Source: a bacterium
GTDB lineage: Bacteria > Myxococcota_A > UBA9160 > UBA6930
Reading direction: 5' to 3'
Length of the DNA: 38,019 nucleotides
Assembly (NCBI GenBank): GCA_024228115.1
Contig: JAAETT010000540.1
Coordinates: 1 to 38,019 of the forward strand
Below are positions 1,809 through 37,708 of this stretch, one piece after another. The notes under the pieces are model-generated. The model saw only the letters and a program-made list of their open reading frames with translations, did not search any database and was not told where the DNA came from. Position 1 is the first letter of the stretch; each line of letters opens with the position of its first letter. Both the position numbers and the translations under genes were made by a program.

Positions 1809-2462
1809 CTACTTGCGGCGTGCTTCCTCGGCGTGGCGGCGCTTGCTTGCCGCCCAACCACAGATCGTGCAGGTTGCCAGCTCATGGCCGCGGGCCGGGC
1901 AATGCTCGCGGCCGAAGAAGATCAGCTGAAGGTGGAGCCGGTTCCAGGCCTCGCGCGGGAAGACGCGCTTCAGATCGCGTTCCGTCTGTTCGACATTGCG
2001 TCCGTTCGAAAGCCCCCAGCGCGCCGCAAGCCGGTGGATGTGCGTATCCACCGGGAAGGCCGGCACGCCAAAGGCCTGGGCCATCACCACGCCCGCCGTC
2101 TTGTGTCCGACTCCGGGCAATGCCTCGAGCGCCTCGAAGCTCTTCGGTACCTCACCGCCATGCTCGGCGAGCAGGAGTTTCGAGAGCGCCTTGATGTTCT
2201 TGGCCTTCTGGGGCGCCAACCCGCAAGAGCGGATCTTCGCGCGGATCTGCGCGACCGAGAGCGCCGCCATCGCTTCCGGATCGGGGCCGATCTCGAACAG
2301 GCCGGGAGTCACCTTGTTCACCCGTTCGTCGGTGCACTGAGCCGAGAGCAGCACGGCCACGAGCAGGGAAAACGGGTCCCGATGCTCCAGCGGAACAGGC
2401 GGTTGCGGGTAGAGGCGATCCAGGATCTTGTGGATGCGCTCGGCCTTCTCGGCGCGCTTCAA
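1809..2462 (-). CDS. nth: Endonuclease III, DNA glycosylase/AP lyase, with a degenerate Fe-S loop
   Basis: A 217-residue base-excision-repair enzyme that removes oxidised pyrimidines and cleaves at abasic sites. The helix-hairpin-helix LPGVGHKTA carries the catalytic lysine (K121), and FPVDTHIHR the catalytic aspartate (D139). In E. coli Nth four cysteines (C-X6-C-X2-C-X5-C) hold a 4Fe-4S cluster. Here only C188, C198 and C201 are present, with a longer first gap and no fourth cysteine, so a normal cluster is unlikely. The gene starts with TTG overlapping the stop of the upstream reductase gene (TTGA), with AGGAGG just before it, so it is probably translated by coupling. An A/G-specific adenine glycosylase is unlikely because the C-terminal MutT-like domain is absent. 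Confidence 0.92.
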   Translation of the reverse strand: MKRAEKAERIHKILDRLYPQPPVPLEHRDPFSLLVAVLLSAQCTDERVNKVTPGLFEIGPDPEAMAALSVAQIRAKIRSCGLAPQKAKNIKALSKLLLAEHGGEVPKSFEALEALPGVGHKTAGVVMAQAFGVPAFPVDTHIHRLAARWGLSNGRNVEQTERDLKRVFPREAWNRLHLQLIFFGREHCPARGHELATCTICGWAASKRRHAEEARRK

Positions 2463-3814
2463 CCCTCCTGCACCTTCTCGCGCATGGTCACGAACTCTTC
2501 GGCCGAGGTCGGATGGATGCCGATCGTCGCATCGAATTGGGCCTTGGTGGCACCGAGCTTCACGGCGATCCCGACGCCCTGGAGGATTTCCGCCGCATCC
2601 GCGCCGATCATGTGAGCACCAACGACCCGATCCGTCTTCGGATCGACCAGCAGTTTCATCATCGTCTGTTCGTCACGGCCGGTCAGGGTGTGTTTCAGCG
2701 GCCGAAACTTCGATCGGTAGACGTCGATGCTGCCCAGCCGTTCTCGTGCCTCCGCTTCCGTGAGCCCCACGGTACCGATGGGCGGTTGACTGAAGACAGC
2801 GGTCGCCACATCGGCGTGGTCGGGACGGGTAGGCTCATCACCGAAGACGGTGCGGACGAACGCCATGGCTTCGGCGATCGCCATGGGTGTGAGGTTCAGG
2901 CGGTCGGTCACATCACCCAGAGCCCAGATGCTAGGTACGTTGCTGCGCGAATAGGGATCGACCAGGATCTCGCCGATCTTTCCCATCTCCACGCCCGCTT
3001 TCTCGAGGCCGAGATCCTTCGTCTTCGGCACGCGGCCGGTGGCATACAGGATCTGGTCGACGACCAGCTTGCTCCCGTCCGAGAGCGTCAAGTGCAGGCC
3101 GTCATCCTCGCGGCGGATTTCGGAAACGTCCGTCTCGAAGCGCAGGTCGATGCCCTTCTTCGGCATCTCTTCGGCGAGCGTCTTTCGCAGATCGTCATCG
3201 AAGCCGCGCAGGAAGAGGGGCCCGCGATAGATCTGGGTCGTCTCGACACCCAATCCGTTGAAGATGCCGGCGAACTCCACACCGATGTAGCCGCCGCCCA
3301 CGATCGCAGCGCGCTTCGGAAGCTCCTCCAGATAGAACGCTTCGTTGGACGAAATGGCGTGCTCGATGCCCGGGATGTCGGGCAGATGCGGCCACGAGCC
3401 GACCGCGACCAGGATGTTCTCGGCCGTGTAGCGCTGCTCGCCTACCTCGACGGTATGCGCGTCCACGATCGTCGCCCGGCCGGAAATCAGCGTCACGCCC
3501 GCGCCATCGAGCATGCGCTGATAGACGCCGTTCAGCCGGGTGATCTCCTTGTCCTTGTTCTCGAGCAGCGTCGGCCAATCGAAGCTGCGCGGGCCGACGC
3601 TCCAGCCGAAGCCCGCAGCGTCCTCGAAATCCTCGGAAAAATGCGAGGCCAATACGAAGAGCTTCTTGGGAATGCAGCCGACGTTGACGCAGGTACCGCC
3701 AAGCCGGTCGTCCTCGGCCACGGCCACACGCGCGCCCTGGCCCGCGGCCATACGGCTCGCACGCACCCCGCCGGAGCCGGCACCGAGCACGAAGAGATCG
3801 AAATCGTGTTCCAT
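2459..3814 (-). CDS. gor: Glutathione-disulfide reductase-like flavoprotein
   Basis: A 451-residue cytosolic pyridine nucleotide-disulfide oxidoreductase. Domains in order: FAD-binding LGAGSGGVRAS near the N-terminus, redox-active disulfide GGTCVNVGCIPKKL near residue 40, NAD(P)H-binding GGGYIGVEFAG near residue 170 with a nearby arginine (LRGFD) typical of NADPH users, a second FAD contact WALGDVTD, and the dimer domain ending in HPTSAEE with the catalytic His-Glu pair. This pattern fits glutathione reductase better than dihydrolipoamide or mercuric reductase, but trypanothione-like or other low-molecular-weight thiol substrates cannot be excluded. It overlaps nth by 4 bases and follows the transglycosylase gene by about 50 bases. 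A glutathione transferase near 16 kb fits glutathione use in this cell. Confidence 0.9.
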   Translation of the reverse strand: MEHDFDLFVLGAGSGGVRASRMAAGQGARVAVAEDDRLGGTCVNVGCIPKKLFVLASHFSEDFEDAAGFGWSVGPRSFDWPTLLENKDKEITRLNGVYQRMLDGAGVTLISGRATIVDAHTVEVGEQRYTAENILVAVGSWPHLPDIPGIEHAISSNEAFYLEELPKRAAIVGGGYIGVEFAGIFNGLGVETTQIYRGPLFLRGFDDDLRKTLAEEMPKKGIDLRFETDVSEIRREDDGLHLTLSDGSKLVVDQILYATGRVPKTKDLGLEKAGVEMGKIGEILVDPYSRSNVPSIWALGDVTDRLNLTPMAIAEAMAFVRTVFGDEPTRPDHADVATAVFSQPPIGTVGLTEAEARERLGSIDVYRSKFRPLKHTLTGRDEQTMMKLLVDPKTDRVVGAHMIGADAAEILQGVGIAVKLGATKAQFDATIGIHPTSAEEFVTMREKVQEG

Positions 3815-15138: not shown

Positions 15139-15435
15139 TCACCAGCGGAAGCGTCTCAGGTCGATCTTGCCGCTGGCGGAGAACACCACGCCTTCGGCTT
15201 CGAGGATGGCGCGTTGAACGGGCTCGCTGCCGGGAACGGCGCGGGCGCTCACTTCGCCGCGCGCGTTCACGACGCGCTGCCACGGGACGCTGGAACCGTG
15301 GGGCAGGGCGTACCCGACCTGACGTGCCTGCCGGGGGAGATCGGCCAACTCGGCGATTTGACCGTAGGTGGCGACGCGGCCCGGGGGGATGCGCCGAACC
15401 ACCTGATAGATCTTCTCGTAGTTTCCCTCGCCCAC
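15139..15435 (-). CDS. Alkyltransferase-like (Atl) DNA repair protein
   Basis: A 98-residue MGMT C-domain protein. It has the helix-turn-helix part (VRRIPPGRVATYGQIAEL) and the arginine-finger region, but the active-site PCHRV of O6-methylguanine methyltransferase reads PWQRV, with Trp replacing the alkyl-accepting Cys. This is the mark of Atl proteins, which bind O6-alkylguanine without repairing it and hand the lesion to nucleotide excision repair. uvrA is in this window at 19.5 kb. The start is a GTG at 15435. It is the last gene of the minus-strand operon, 11 bases after the selenoprotein gene. Confidence 0.9.
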   Translation of the reverse strand: MGEGNYEKIYQVVRRIPPGRVATYGQIAELADLPRQARQVGYALPHGSSVPWQRVVNARGEVSARAVPGSEPVQRAILEAEGVVFSASGKIDLRRFRW

Positions 15436-15446
15436 GGCGGGGCAGG

Positions 15447-15674
15447 CTATCCCAAGCGCTGCTTCAGCGCGTCCAGGATCTCGCCGTCTTCGGGGAAACG
15501 TCCGGCCTCGTGCTTGGAAAAGATCCGTTCGCCGTCGACGGCCACGTCATAGATGCCGCCCGCGCCCTCGTGAAGCTCTGCCTCGATTCCGAACTCGTCC
15601 TGCAATGCGGCCGCCAGACTGGCGGCCCGGGGCAGGTAGTTTCAAGCCCCGCAGTAGGTGATCTCGACCTTCAT
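15447..15674 (-). CDS. SelW-like (Rdx family) selenoprotein with in-frame UGA
   Basis: A 75-residue protein if UGA at 15644-15642 is read as selenocysteine. It starts MKVEITYCGA, then Sec11, then NYLPRAASLAAAL and ends in ERIFSKHEAGRFPEDGEILDALKQRLG with a TAG stop. The CxxU redox motif reads C-G-A-U, the same as in eukaryotic SelW, at the expected place after the first beta strand; the IFSKHEAGRFPE region is typical of Rdx proteins. Start support is strong: AGGAGG lies 7 bases upstream of the ATG. Gaps to its neighbours are 19 bases (glutathione transferase) and 11 bases (Atl), so it fills the operon exactly. Ordinary ORF calling misses it because of the UGA. A thiol-based redox role is inferred from the family; a frameshift or pseudogene is less likely because both sides of UGA are conserved in sense. 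Confidence 0.88.
15609..15627 (-). promoter_or_regulatory. SECIS-like hairpin after the UGA codon
   Basis: On the minus strand GGCCGCCA and TGGCGGCC form a perfect 8-bp stem around GTC, beginning 14 bases after the UGA codon. The apical loop, AGUCU if the A-U pair opens, presents a GU about 23 bases after UGA. The E. coli fdhF SECIS has a comparable distance and a loop with the essential GU. It lies inside the coding region, as bacterial SECIS elements do. The assignment is by eye. Confidence 0.65.
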
Positions 15675-15693
15675 GACATCCTCCTGTGGGCGT

Positions 15694-16287
15694 TCACGCT
15701 TTGACCAGCGCAGAGACCCGGGCCGTATGATCCATCAGCGCGGTGCGGGATTCCATCACCTCGGCTACCTCTGGCCCGACGGCCCGGCGCACACCCTCGA
15801 GGAAGGACCAGACCGCCAGATCTGCACGCCCGGGGACATCCGAGTAGAAGAACGGGCGCCCGCCGAGGAAGTTCACCAGATCGTCCAGACGCTGGGCGAA
15901 CTCACCGGCCAGGCCAGGCCGCGACGGCGGTCCACCGTCTTCCTCGTTCACCAGCCCGCGCAGGTAGTGGGTCCAGTAGAAGGTAAACGCCGATTCGGCC
16001 CACTGCTCGAGGCGGCGTTGGCTCTGGGCCGACTTCGGATCCGACGCGACCAGAGGCGGGTCGGGAAATCGCTCTTCGATGAGATCCAGGATCCGAGCCG
16101 AATCATGCACCCGCTCACCGTCCACGTCGATCAACGGAAGCAGACCCGTCTCTGGATTCCAGCGCCGGTAATCCTCCGGGCTCTGAGGCTCCACGAAGTC
16201 GTAGGGCAGCTTCTTGAGCGCGAGCGCCCCCTGGACTTTTCGAGTGAAAGGCGCCGTGATGGGTCCGTACAGGACGATCTTGCTCAT
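15694..16287 (-). CDS. Glutathione S-transferase family protein
   Basis: A 197-residue soluble GST-fold protein. The N-terminal thioredoxin-like domain has IVLYGPITAPFTRKVQGAL with the short active-site loop, NPETGLLPLIDVDG with the cis-proline that binds glutathione, and the DSARILDLIEERF helix. The C-terminal helical domain follows (GRADLAVWSFLEG). The catalytic Ser/Tyr position is not certain because the loop reads ITAPFT. It follows the AhpD-like gene by 37 bases and precedes the selenoprotein gene, so a role in peroxide or electrophile detoxification is inferred. Confidence 0.88.
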   Translation of the reverse strand: MSKIVLYGPITAPFTRKVQGALALKKLPYDFVEPQSPEDYRRWNPETGLLPLIDVDGERVHDSARILDLIEERFPDPPLVASDPKSAQSQRRLEQWAESAFTFYWTHYLRGLVNEEDGGPPSRPGLAGEFAQRLDDLVNFLGGRPFFYSDVPGRADLAVWSFLEGVRRAVGPEVAEVMESRTALMDHTARVSALVKA

Positions 16288-16324: not shown

Positions 16325-16864
16325 TCATCCGGCGAGGGCCAGGCGTTCCAGTCCATCGTCAGGGATCTCGAGCGCCAGGTTGATCAGGTTGTAATAGTTC
16401 TCGAGGGCACACACTGCGGTGATCTCGGCGATTTCGCGTTCGCCCCAATGCTTGCGCAGCTCTTCGAAAACCCCGTCATCGACACATCGGTCGCTCATGG
16501 CTTCCGCGTAGGCCAGAGCCGCACGCTCCGCGTCGTCGAAGACGTCGCTCTCCTGCCACTGCGCGAGGGCATCGAAGCGTTCGATTCCCATGGCCTGCCG
16601 GATTGCAAAGGCTCGGGCGATATCCACGCAGAACTCGCAGCCGTTGCGTAGCGCAATCTGCGTCTGCAGCAGCAGCGCCAACTCCTTCGATATCGCGAGG
16701 CTGTTCGTAAGGCGAAGGTTCGCCCACGTGACATTCCAGAGCCGCGGCACCCGGTTGTAGAGCACCTTTGCCGGCATGATCGTCTGGCCCAGCCCGCGCT
16801 GCATGCCGAAGGACATCACGCGCCCCAAGAACGAAGACGGTCGCTGGATCGGTTCGAGTCGCAT
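16325..16864 (-). CDS. AhpD-like carboxymuconolactone decarboxylase family protein
   Basis: A 179-residue protein of the AhpD/CMD fold. The redox CxxC sits in ALRNGCEFCVDIA (Cys76, Cys79) after the usual SKELALLLQTQIA helix. AhpD has a histidine four residues after the second cysteine; here it is an alanine, so alkylhydroperoxidase activity is uncertain. I start at the ATG at 16864 because AAAGGAG lies about 8 bases upstream and it follows the regulator stop (TGA) by one base, which suggests translational coupling. It is the second gene of the operon. Confidence 0.85.
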   Translation of the reverse strand: MRLEPIQRPSSFLGRVMSFGMQRGLGQTIMPAKVLYNRVPRLWNVTWANLRLTNSLAISKELALLLQTQIALRNGCEFCVDIARAFAIRQAMGIERFDALAQWQESDVFDDAERAALAYAEAMSDRCVDDGVFEELRKHWGEREIAEITAVCALENYYNLINLALEIPDDGLERLALAG

Positions 16865-16865
16865 C

Positions 16866-18338
16866 TCATTGCTCCTTTGCACAGATTCCGAGCCGCGCGA
16901 TGCCCTCGCGCACATCTCCCTCGCTCACGGCACCGACGGCCAACAGCAGGTTGCGTCGCAGCCCACTGCCGATGTTGTCACCAGTCGCGAAGCCGGCACC
17001 ATGGAACGCCAGGACATCGGCCTTGCGTGCGCTGCGGACCAGTGCGCGTGCATCGAAACCCTCGGGAAGCGTCACCCACAAGCCAGCGCCGCCCGCAGGC
17101 CGACGCACCGCGGTGCCCTCCGGCATGTATTCCGCGATCGCCTCCATTCCCGCGTCTACACGCAGGGCCATCTCCCGTCTCACGCGACGCACATGGCGCG
17201 CGAAACCTTCGCTGCGGATCCATTCCGCCAGCACGGCTTGTTCCAGGGCCGGCGTCGTGAGTGCGCTACTCAGCTTCGCCGTGGCGAGCCGATCGAGGAG
17301 CGGTGCTGGAGCCACCAAGTAACCGAGGCGCAACGCGGGAAAGATCGCCTTCGAGAAGGTGCCCACATAGATCACCTGGCCGGCCTGATCCGCGGTTTTC
17401 AGCGCTGGCCGCACCGGATCGTCGAGACGCAGCTCGCCGTCGTAGTCGTCCTCGAGGATCGGTACGTGAGCCGCCGCCGACAGCTCGAGCAGGTGTGCGC
17501 GGCGCTCGTCCGAGAGCACGACGCCCGTCGGCTGTTGGACCGCTGGCGTCGCGATGATGAGTTTCAGGCGACCGTGGGCCAGCACCCGGGCCAGGTCATC
17601 GGTGATGAGCCCGTTCTCGTCCACGGCGATCGGAATGCGGTGGGCGCGGGCCGCACGGAACGCGAAATCCGCACCGAAGTAGCCCGGGGTCTCGAGCGCG
17701 ACCGCATCGCCTGGGTCGATCAGCACCCGCGCGACCAGGTCGAGCGCCTGCTGCGCCCCCGCGACCACGACGACCTCGTCCGCTTCGCAGCGAACGCCGC
17801 GCGCCACCAGTGCCCTGGCGATCGCCTCGCGCAGGGGGGGCCAACCACGCGGATCGAGGTGATTCGCCAGCTCGGCTGCCTGGTTCTCGAACACCCGGCC
17901 GAACAGACGGCGCAGCTCGCTCAGGGGTAGAAGCTCCGGCGCGACGCGGCCGGGCCGGAAATCGAAGGCGGTCGCCGCGGGCTCTGCCGGGAGCCCGGCC
18001 GGTAGCGCCCGGGCCGGGCCCGAGAACAGGCTCTCCCAGACGAAGCTGCGGCCCCCGTCCCGGCACCCGACCCGCTCGGCTGGGATGGGCGCTTCGTCCC
18101 TCACGAACGTTCCCTGGCCCACCCGCGCCCGCAGCCGATCCCGATCGATCAGGGTCTGGTAGGCCTGATTCACCGTGTTGCGCGCCAGCCCCAGCGAAGC
18201 CGCCAGATCTCGACTGGCCGGCAGGCGCTCGCCAGGCTGCAGCCGGCCGCTCGAGATCAGGCGGCCGAGATGATCGGCCAGTTGGAGATAGACCGGCTCC
18301 GGAGCGTTCCGATCCGGCGAGAACGGCAGTTCGTGCAC
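16866..18338 (-). CDS. MocR/PdxR-type GntR regulator with aminotransferase domain
   Basis: A 490-residue transcription factor. Residues about 15-80 form a GntR winged helix (PVYLQLADHLGRLISSGRL, LPASRDLAASLGLARNTVNQAY, GQGTFV). From about residue 120 to the end lies a fold-type I aminotransferase domain with LETPGYFG, an ILEDDYDGELR aspartate and the PLP lysine near residue 330 (GTFSKAIFPALRLGY). Such regulators sense PLP or an amino-compound. The start is a GTG. It is the first gene of the minus-strand operon with the AhpD-like, GST, SelW and Atl genes, so it probably regulates this operon and itself; it is also divergent from surA. The real effector is unknown. Confidence 0.9.
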   Translation of the reverse strand: MHELPFSPDRNAPEPVYLQLADHLGRLISSGRLQPGERLPASRDLAASLGLARNTVNQAYQTLIDRDRLRARVGQGTFVRDEAPIPAERVGCRDGGRSFVWESLFSGPARALPAGLPAEPAATAFDFRPGRVAPELLPLSELRRLFGRVFENQAAELANHLDPRGWPPLREAIARALVARGVRCEADEVVVVAGAQQALDLVARVLIDPGDAVALETPGYFGADFAFRAARAHRIPIAVDENGLITDDLARVLAHGRLKLIIATPAVQQPTGVVLSDERRAHLLELSAAAHVPILEDDYDGELRLDDPVRPALKTADQAGQVIYVGTFSKAIFPALRLGYLVAPAPLLDRLATAKLSSALTTPALEQAVLAEWIRSEGFARHVRRVRREMALRVDAGMEAIAEYMPEGTAVRRPAGGAGLWVTLPEGFDARALVRSARKADVLAFHGAGFATGDNIGSGLRRNLLLAVGAVSEGDVREGIARLGICAKEQ

Positions 18339-26775: not shown

Positions 26776-28047
26776 TTACTCGTCGCGAGCGAGGCGGATT
26801 CCGCTGAATTGCCAGCGGGCGTCCGGGTAGAAGAAATTGCGGTAGGTCGGCCGGAGGTGGGCGTTCGAGGTTGCGCAGGAGCCGCCGCGGAGTACGAGCT
26901 GGTTGACCATGAACTTGCCGTTGTACTCGCCGATCGCACCAGGCGCAGCCCGATAGCCGGGATAGGGTGAGTAGGCGCTGGCCGTCCACTCCCACGTATC
27001 CCCGAAGAGCTGGCGTGGGCCATCCGCAGGTTCACCCGTCGGTGCCGGGGTGGGATGGAATCGGGCGTTCTCGACAAAATTTCCCTTCATCGGCTGGGAT
27101 GCCGCAACGACCTCCCACTCCTGCTCGGTGGGCAAGCGTGCGCCGGCCCAGCGGGCGTAGGCATCGGCTTCGTAGGCGCTCACGTGTGTGACCGGCTCGC
27201 TCAGGCAAAGCCCCCGAGGCCCGCCGAGCGTCTGGATACACCGGGCACCGTCTTCATCGAACCAGTAGAGGGGCGCGCACCATCCGCGCTCGTTCACCGT
27301 CGCCCAGCCGTCGGATAACCAATGCTCTGGCCGACGATAGCCGCCGTCCTCGATGAACTCGAGGAACTCCCCGTTCGTCACCAGGCGCGAAGCAAGCCGG
27401 GCCTCCCGCAACAGGACTTCGTGTTGGGGCGCTTCGTTGTCGAACGCAAAACCCGGGCCCGCGTAGCCCACCTGATGGATCCCACCGGGCACGGCATGCC
27501 AACCCAACGTTTCGACCGATCCCTCGTGAGGAGTTTCGAGATCTTCGCGGTAGGCGGGATGACTGGGATTGCGCGCGAGCAGATGTTTCACATCGGTGAG
27601 AATCAGCTCCTGGTGTTGCTGCTCGTGGTGAAGACCTACTTCGACCACGCCCTGCTCCGATGTACTGAGCGCACCCGCCTCGAGCAGGCGCAACATGGCC
27701 GCGTCCACGTGCTCCCGGTAGGCCATCACCTCTGCGAGCCCGGGTCGAGTGACCAGGCCGCGCTCCGGGCGAAAGAACTGATCCCCGACCGCGTTGTAGT
27801 AGGAGTTGAAGAGCACGCGAAATTCCGGATGGAAGGGTCTGAAGCCGTCTTCGCTTTGCTCCAGGATGAAGGTCTCGAAGAACCAGCTGGTGTGGGCGAG
27901 ATGCCACTTCACCGGGCTCGCCTCGGTCATCGATTGCGCGGTGCAATCCTCCGGCGAAAGTGGAGCGACGAGCGCTCGGGTGGCTTCTCGGATCGCCAGG
28001 TAACGACGGGCCAGATCGGCCTCGGCAGCTTGCGAATGCTCCGGCAT
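26776..28047 (-). CDS. egtB: EgtB-type sulfoxide synthase
   Basis: A 423-residue non-haem iron enzyme that joins hercynine and a thiol (cysteine or gamma-glutamylcysteine) by an oxygen-dependent C-S bond in ergothioneine biosynthesis. The N-terminal DinB-like domain gives the iron ligands: KWHLAH (His52) and HHEQQH (His141 and His145). The C-terminal formylglycine-generating-enzyme-like domain includes YEADAYARWAGARLPTEQEW, QLFGDTWEW and the terminal RPTYRNFFYPDARWQFSGIR. egtD (hercynine synthase) is not next to it. The selenium homologue SenA is possible in principle but no senB/senC neighbour is seen. It follows tmk by 11 bases. Confidence 0.9.
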   Translation of the reverse strand: MPEHSQAAEADLARRYLAIREATRALVAPLSPEDCTAQSMTEASPVKWHLAHTSWFFETFILEQSEDGFRPFHPEFRVLFNSYYNAVGDQFFRPERGLVTRPGLAEVMAYREHVDAAMLRLLEAGALSTSEQGVVEVGLHHEQQHQELILTDVKHLLARNPSHPAYREDLETPHEGSVETLGWHAVPGGIHQVGYAGPGFAFDNEAPQHEVLLREARLASRLVTNGEFLEFIEDGGYRRPEHWLSDGWATVNERGWCAPLYWFDEDGARCIQTLGGPRGLCLSEPVTHVSAYEADAYARWAGARLPTEQEWEVVAASQPMKGNFVENARFHPTPAPTGEPADGPRQLFGDTWEWTASAYSPYPGYRAAPGAIGEYNGKFMVNQLVLRGGSCATSNAHLRPTYRNFFYPDARWQFSGIRLARDE

Positions 28048-34018: not shown

Positions 34019-34121
34019 CCCAATGGGCGCTCCGCTAGCGATGAGTCCTCATTCTCCCCAGAGGGACTTGTCAAATCACCCCCGTATCGGACACGAATCA
34101 CCCGTTGGAACTCCTATTCTC
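34019..34121. repeat. 103-bp direct repeat, copy A
   Basis: Matches copy B (37469-37571) at all but about seven positions, in the same orientation. It contains the near-palindrome ATGAGTCCTCAT and two similar blocks, GGACTTGTCAAATCACCC and GGACACGAATCACCC. The GGDEF-like gene on the minus strand runs into it and stops within its first few bases. Confidence 0.9.
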
Positions 34122-34413
34122 GACAGATCGCTTCCAGGTTCTCGATGCGGCACACCGCCAGGGCCAGGGCGTGCTCGCGACCCTGGCTGCGCGAGATCTC
34201 CCCGTGAATGCGCTTGGAGATGTAGCTCGCGTTGGGGAGCCCCGTCTCCTCGTCGAAGTTCCGGTGTCGGCGGGCCCGGGCCTGGAAGAGGGGGTTCATG
34301 ACCGCGCACCCCACGTAGGAGACGAAGTGCGAGAAGCTCTGGAAGTCGTCGGTGCCGAAGTGGTCGGCGTAGAAGTGATCCGGGAGGGAGAGGAACTCCA
34401 ACAGGGGATCCAT
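34114..34413 (-). pseudogene. Truncated GGDEF-like protein
   Basis: A 99-residue remnant. After about 53 residues of unknown type it shows the start of a diguanylate-cyclase-like domain: FDEETGLPNASYISKRIHGEI followed by ALALAVCRIENLEAI, then it stops at a TAG inside repeat A. The catalytic GGDEF motif and the whole C-terminal half of the domain are missing, so no cyclase activity is expected. It is divergent from the LuxR-type gene. Confidence 0.6.
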
Positions 34414-36736: not shown

Positions 36737-37468
36737 TCACCCTACGCTGGAGGGTGCTCCGGTTCCATGGCGGGAATTGCCCGTTGCCTTCCGGATTGCG
36801 CACGCTGACTGACATCGACAAGGTAGAGCTGCCGGAACCTGCGGGGATTGGCGGGTTCCCGCCAGCTTCCGCCGCCTGTACACCTCGGCGGGCGTCGCCT
36901 TCGATCGCAGGCCGAGCCACTTCCACATTGGAGCCTTCAGGGCGTACTCCACCCGTTCTCCGTCGAGAAACGAGAAGATCTCCGGGTGAAAGAAGGCCGC
37001 GTCCATGCGTAGCTCCACTGGAAGGCGATGCCCGAACCGGCCTCGGAGATCCTCGAACACGCCGCCGAGAAAGCCGGCAGCATTGTGACTGTCGTGCACG
37101 TTCCCCGGCCGATTCCAGACGCGAAGGATCTGGCCGTGCTGGGTAAGATGCGCCGTGGGCGGGTAGTAGGAGAGATCCTTGAGATGGTGCGGGTTGAAGC
37201 CCCGTTCTGCTCCGTCGACCTTCGTGCCAGTTCGCAGCACCGTTCCATCGCGGTCGATCGTCAACCGGGAAAGGCCGCAACGCTCGACCTGGTCGTACAC
37301 GAGCTCCCGGATCAGCTCCGACAACTTCTCGAGCATCTGGGGGGTGAAGGCCTTCAGCCAGGCCACCACCGTGCGGTCGGAAGGCGTGAGATGGAGTCCC
37401 GCGAAGCGCAGCAACACTGGATCGGTCCCGACGAACACGAGATGCGTGACGCGCAGGCCTCCGATCAC
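36737..37468 (-). mobile_element. IS1380-family transposase remnant, both ends lost
   Basis: About 240 codons of the middle and later part of an IS1380-type DDE transposase: TDPVLLRFAGLHLTPSDRTV, then LTIDRDGTVLRTGTKVDGAERGFNPH with the first catalytic Asp, SYYPPTAHLTQHGQILRVWNRPGNVHDS, ELRMDAAFFHPEIFSFL with the second Asp, and YALKAPMWKWLGL. The N-terminal quarter is missing: the frame begins at the edge of repeat copy B. The last 40 residues lose similarity. It is therefore inactive. It shows that IS activity preceded the repeat insertion or rearrangement here. Confidence 0.8.
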
Positions 37469-37571
37469 CCCAATGGGCGCTCCGCTAGTAATGAGTCCTC
37501 ATTCTCCCCAGAAGGACTTGTCAAATCACCCCCTTGTCGGACACGAATCACCCGTTGGAACTCCCATTCTC
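37469..37571. repeat. 103-bp direct repeat, copy B
   Basis: Same sequence as copy A with about seven differences (for example TCGCTAG-type GCGATG versus GTAATG, GAGGGACT versus GAAGGACT, CGTATCGG versus CTTGTCGG). Its left edge cuts the IS1380 transposase and its right edge cuts the SRPBCC gene. Distance to copy A is 3450 bases. Confidence 0.9.
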
Positions 37572-37708
37572 TCCAGTGTGCCGCCCTTGCGATAGTCCGG
37601 AGAGGAAGCCTGCGTGAACCACTCCGCGATGCCGGCCGTGCTAGCCACGCGCCGGTACACGCTCTCCGGCGTTGCACGAATCCGAACGAGATGGGCGATC
37701 TGTGCCAT
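37526..37708 (-). pseudogene. Truncated SRPBCC/AHSA1-type protein
   Basis: The first 45 or so residues of an SRPBCC (START-like) protein: MAQIAHLVRIRATPESVYRR, then IAEWFTQASSPDYRKGGTLE. The family is usually about 140-160 residues; here the reading frame enters repeat copy B at 37571 and ends after 15 unrelated residues. Probably a broken gene. The family binds hydrophobic ligands; no function remains to be inferred. Confidence 0.6.

Follow-up and report, generated by a model that had tools for sequence, protein, structure and literature searches.

SelW-like selenoproteins are a long-known family in bacteria and have been described from the Sargasso Sea, from GOS samples and from sequenced bacteria, Geobacter and Desulfotalea among them (PMC1088965, PMC1794560, PMC2398784, PMC13188914). 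A 2026 review lists the SELENOW-like family under PF10262 with a CxxU motif and one selenocysteine (Sec) only (PMC13188914), and a 2006 survey found very few Cys homologues of SelW-like proteins in Sec-using bacteria (PMC1794560). In the bacterial SECIS (bSECIS) model of the 2026 review, a stem of 4-16 bp carries a loop of 3-9 nt with a G in its first two positions, located 16-37 nt from the UGA, with an MFE of -7.5 kcal/mol or lower (PMC13188914). The present analysis concerns a candidate member of this family, referred to below as rdx, found in a 38,019-nt stretch of DNA (the window) that makes up positions 1 to 38,019 of contig JAAETT010000540.1 (assembly GCA_024228115.1; Myxococcota_A, UBA9160, UBA6930).

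Results

The rdx gene occupies positions 15447-15674 of the window on the minus strand. A sequence-only reading of the window had given the same coordinates with the strand left unstated; translation of the plus strand over this interval gives no sensible product. An AGGAGG Shine-Dalgarno sequence (15680-15685, minus strand) lies 5 nt ahead of the ATG (15674-15672), and GGAG-type sites precede the gene in many of its relatives. The codons TGC-GGG-GCT lead into an in-frame TGA at codon 11 (15644-15642), giving the motif C-G-A-U, and the frame then runs unbroken to a TAG (15449-15447). With the TGA read as Sec the product has 75 residues (MKVEITYCGAUNYLPRAASLAAALQDEFGIEAELHEGAGGIYDVAVDGERIFSKHEAGRFPEDGEILDALKQRLG) and a CxxU motif formed by C8 and U11. 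Spacing to both neighbours is tight: the ATG lies 19 nt past the stop of the upstream gene, and the start of the next gene is 11 nt past the rdx TAG. The ATG with its AGGAGG, the C-G-A-U motif, the open frame to the TAG and the tight spacing had been recognized in the sequence-only reading and were seen again in the minus-strand sequence. The 64-codon open frame past the TGA is weak evidence on its own, as a frame of this length has a chance of about 0.2 at 65% GC. No other Rdx gene was found in the same genome.

Membership of the Rdx family, also proposed earlier, was borne out by profile matches, by solved relatives and by the predicted fold. The product matched Pfam Rdx (PF10262) with 67.5 bits against a gathering score of 22.6 (E 1.2e-18), and TIGR02174 with 56.5 bits against a cut-off of 34.2. 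The best NCBIfam model was NF041051 (SelTWH_Campy), which matched over nearly the full length; its 84.3 bits fall under the curated equivalog cut-off of 88, and the protein is therefore filed under Rdx/TIGR02174. Relatives of solved structure, identified by sequence, include MIEN1 (C17orf37) along with several SelW-related proteins from bacteria. A structure predicted from a 38-sequence alignment, with Sec entered as Cys, reached a pLDDT of 92 and displayed a thioredoxin-like fold in which the CxxU motif (C8-G-A-U11) lies between the first strand (residues 3-8) and the first helix (14-28). The top fold matches were the SelW-related crystal structures 2fa8, 2obk and 2ojl (TM up to 0.92), and mouse SelW (2npb) gave a TM of 0.73. 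In the alignment of relatives Y7 and C8 are invariant; the part ahead of the UGA is thus conserved as protein, and so is the part that follows it.

Conservation of the in-frame UGA was examined in the class and in public genomes. Of the 91 class genomes, 69 have a close relative of rdx that contains a single in-frame TGA, among them all four other members of the genus. Two of the class matches had been listed with an extra TAG, which proved to be an ordinary gene end in both. A search of GTDB contigs, based on the conserved peptides flanking the motif and hence not requiring a TGA for a match, recovered 74 relatives from several phyla, all with TGA at the CxxU site. Altogether, TGA provides the U of CxxU in 104/104 loci read, without a frameshift, and the rdx UGA aligns with this U in every one of them and with Cys in paralogous Rdx proteins. 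One relative (L119:1466-1666, JAJZXK010000134.1) carries TGA at both motif positions, UxxU (TAC TGA ACG AGT TGA GGG); it keeps the same hairpin, but the closest ATG on its upstream side lies in another frame and its coverage is about 2.5x, so that an assembly error is possible.

The hairpin noted earlier 14 bases past the UGA, with GU in its loop, was found exactly as claimed. It spans 15609-15627 (minus strand): a perfect 8-bp stem opens 14 nt past the UGA, with positions 15-22 pairing with 26-33 to close a 3-nt loop, GUC, at 15619-15617 (+23 to +25 after the UGA). With its loop 22 nt from the UGA and a folding energy of -25.3 kcal/mol, it agrees with the bSECIS model (PMC13188914), as do 93 of 99 distinct relatives in loop, spacing, G and MFE. 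The loop reads GUY in 96 of the 99, at a fixed distance with G at +23. Pair 18-30 is a standard pair in 98/99 relatives and occurs as six types (CG, UA, GC, UG, GU and AU), pair 21-27 is standard in all 99 and occurs as four (CG, GC, UA and AU), while pair 20-28 is CG throughout. Since positions 18, 21, 27 and 30 each fall on the third base of a codon, most of this covariation is synonymous, and conservation of the protein does not explain it. With relatives of shared ancestry p values are only indicative, yet the pairs come in many distinct types. When the 99 relatives were taken together, 553/594 pairs were formed in the correct register as against at most 284/594 in slid registers. The serine codon that provides the first bases of the loop is AGU in 88/88 cases, compared to 25/394 of the other serines in the same genes. 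For 96% of relatives, the region 3' of the UGA folded more stably than its synonymous recodings did; z averaged -1.07 and was -2.15 in the window copy. An Rfam search of the whole window at gathering thresholds returned no matches, a result of little weight given that bSECIS elements vary widely.

The genes selA, selB, selC and selD, whose presence had been predicted and whose absence would have spoken against a selenoprotein, were all found in the same genome. SelA (509 bits) and SelB (285 bits) were both matched, and the tRNA-Sec (71 bits) was identified by ARAGORN as tRNA-SeC with anticodon tca. Two selD-like genes scored above the cut-off, and the better one (353 bits) has an in-frame TGA of its own (LARTCGUAAKIGP). 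Across the class, SelA was present in 68/69 genomes with a UGA-containing Rdx gene versus 16/22 without one (Fisher p 6.6e-4; this value and the p value for the AGU preference are indicative only, as they overstate the independence of relatives that share ancestry). The single exception, G085, is an 85% complete genome. SelB was below the cut-off in 22 of the 91 class genomes, including G078 of the same genus and other carriers of a UGA-Rdx gene; these are mostly fragmented assemblies in which SelA is mostly present. SelB is a poorer co-occurrence marker than SelA because its matches break up in fragmented assemblies, and its gaps blur the co-occurrence of UGA-Rdx with the Sec machinery. In the flanks of the relatives' loci compared for the hairpin, selA, selB and selD were not found; the one selB neighbour seen is in the class member G005 (C87:26743-28935; L142), where a UGA-rdx gene lies directly 3' of selB, a context link between the SelW-like selenoprotein and the Sec machinery. 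At G000:C99:7755-8669 (L019), a second SelD-like gene lies within a 750-residue open frame devoid of TGA; it may be an Ndh-SelD fusion like those described in PMC2398784.

The genes flanking rdx on the same strand were also inspected. Immediately upstream is a GST-like gene (15694-16287; Pfam GST_N_3, 3.7e-9), which ends in a true TGA stop, and downstream is a gene for an alkyltransferase-like protein with an MGMT DNA-binding domain (15139-15435; Pfam DNA_binding_1, 1.7e-21). The site of the latter reads VPWQRV and contains no cysteine; active MGMT has the motif PCHR at this site. Further upstream are an AhpD/carboxymuconolactone decarboxylase-like gene with a Cys-type CxxC, GCEFC (16325-16915; Pfam CMD, 2.5e-7), and a MocR-like regulator. 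The GST gene adjoins rdx in all five genus members and the alkyltransferase-like gene in four of the five, and in the DNA compared the CMD gene is near rdx in three of them; outside the genus, none of these three neighbours was found beside rdx in the DNA compared. The earlier description of the locus as a detoxification operon thus holds only in part, and the DNA compared did not extend it past the genus; as drawn from genus-restricted neighbours, the label is reasonable but tentative.

Several other features of the window were recorded. A glutathione-disulfide reductase gene (2459-3814, minus strand; 665.9 bits) is consistent with the use of glutathione. An EgtB gene of ergothioneine synthesis (26776-28047, minus strand; 572.7 bits) also matched the SenA (selenoneine synthase) model, with a score of 364.8 that is below the cut-off of 420. 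A 108-nt direct repeat is present at 34019-34126 and 37469-37576 (93% identical, 3450 nt apart), and a fragment of an IS1380-like transposase (36737-37468, minus strand) directly adjoins the second of its copies.

Discussion

Taken together, these data make it very probable that rdx encodes a true SelW/Rdx selenoprotein, its UGA being read as selenocysteine by way of the downstream hairpin. Decisive for this reading are the homology, the conservation of the UGA and the covariation of the hairpin. At the level of sequence, the family, the conserved UGA, the conserved and covarying hairpin and a complete Sec machinery are established; from them we infer the actual insertion of Sec and the redox chemistry of the product.

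Three other explanations of the TGA were weighed. It may be a true stop with the start of translation downstream, which would leave just the stretch 3' of the TGA to be made; this is what a standard gene caller, unable to read through TGA, would propose. Such a product would be missing both strand 1 of the fold and its redox Cys. A Shine-Dalgarno sequence and an ATG precede the UGA, and the residues from the ATG to the UGA are conserved, Y7 and C8 without exception; we consider this explanation very unlikely. The possibility of a Cys-type Rdx gene in which the TGA arose by nonsense mutation, or stands for a misread TGC or TGT, draws on the fragmented draft assembly from which the contig comes (700 contigs) and on the occurrence in the class of Cys-type Rdx genes with TGC or TGT at this very site. 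An error of this kind is hard to reconcile with a TGA at the exact position in 104 loci of several phyla from independent assemblies, with third-position covariation in the hairpin, or with conserved protein past the UGA in the relatives, and is extremely improbable.

A reassignment of UGA to another amino acid (Trp or Gly) would account for read-through of an in-frame TGA in both rdx and selD. However, TGA ends the four neighbouring genes of the same strand, and such ordinary use of UGA as a stop excludes a change of code; moreover, 45 of 99 relatives terminate rdx itself with TGA, the genome has a tRNA-Sec whose anticodon is tca, and Cys-type Rdx proteins have Cys at the UGA site, neither Trp nor Gly. 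The chance that reassignment is the explanation is vanishingly small, and UGA has two meanings in this organism, Sec and stop, set by context.

In the selenoprotein reading, SelA and SelD would make Sec-tRNA(Sec), and the hairpin 3' of the UGA, with its GUC loop, would recruit SelB bearing Sec-tRNA(Sec), allowing the ribosome to insert selenocysteine. In the small thioredoxin-like protein predicted here, the CxxU would cycle between the thiol/selenol and the selenenylsulfide forms, a redox role suggested by motif and fold. A function in glutathione-linked reduction or repair, beside GST and alkyltransferase-like genes that apparently belong to the same operon, is suggested more weakly, and the confidence expressed above does not extend to it. 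The Sargasso Sea paper mentions an interaction of SelW with glutathione (PMC1088965), an observation that fits the GST neighbour, though it is no test of it. That the Sec-containing SelW, the GST and the cysteine-less alkyltransferase-like protein form a dedicated, glutathione-linked module against electrophile or alkylation stress is a tentative proposal which we regard as rather unlikely; if true, it would give the SelW-like bacterial selenoproteins a concrete pathway. The genus-conserved GST neighbour is one lead on the function of these proteins.

As the family has long been known, rdx is not a new kind of selenoprotein but a well-supported additional member. It is a clean, testable gene of a sort that is truncated or overlooked by standard gene callers, and its alignment displays how tightly a SECIS within the coding region limits the choice of codons across phyla. 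With the bacterial SelW-like proteins described before, it has in common the family, the CxxU motif, the single Sec and a hairpin in which a G starts a small loop; it differs in lineage and in its neighbours, GST and alkyltransferase-like genes here versus some Prx/SelW pairs in the GOS study. NF041051, which represents a SelT/SelW/SelH family (seleno)protein, is the nearest NCBIfam model, with rdx just under its cut-off. Within the class, the Cys-type Rdx proteins are homologous and carry CxxC in place of CxxU; those read form a separate subfamily, of the RWLLRAAWLAQELL type, with approximately 33-49% identity and a TGC or TGT codon for the Cys. The scarcity of Cys homologues reported in 2006 (PMC1794560) agrees with the uniform presence of Sec in the rdx group. 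Eukaryotic selenoprotein W has the fold and the CxxU motif in common with rdx, but its SECIS is located in the 3' UTR (PMC1088965), whereas that of rdx lies in the coding region directly past the UGA.
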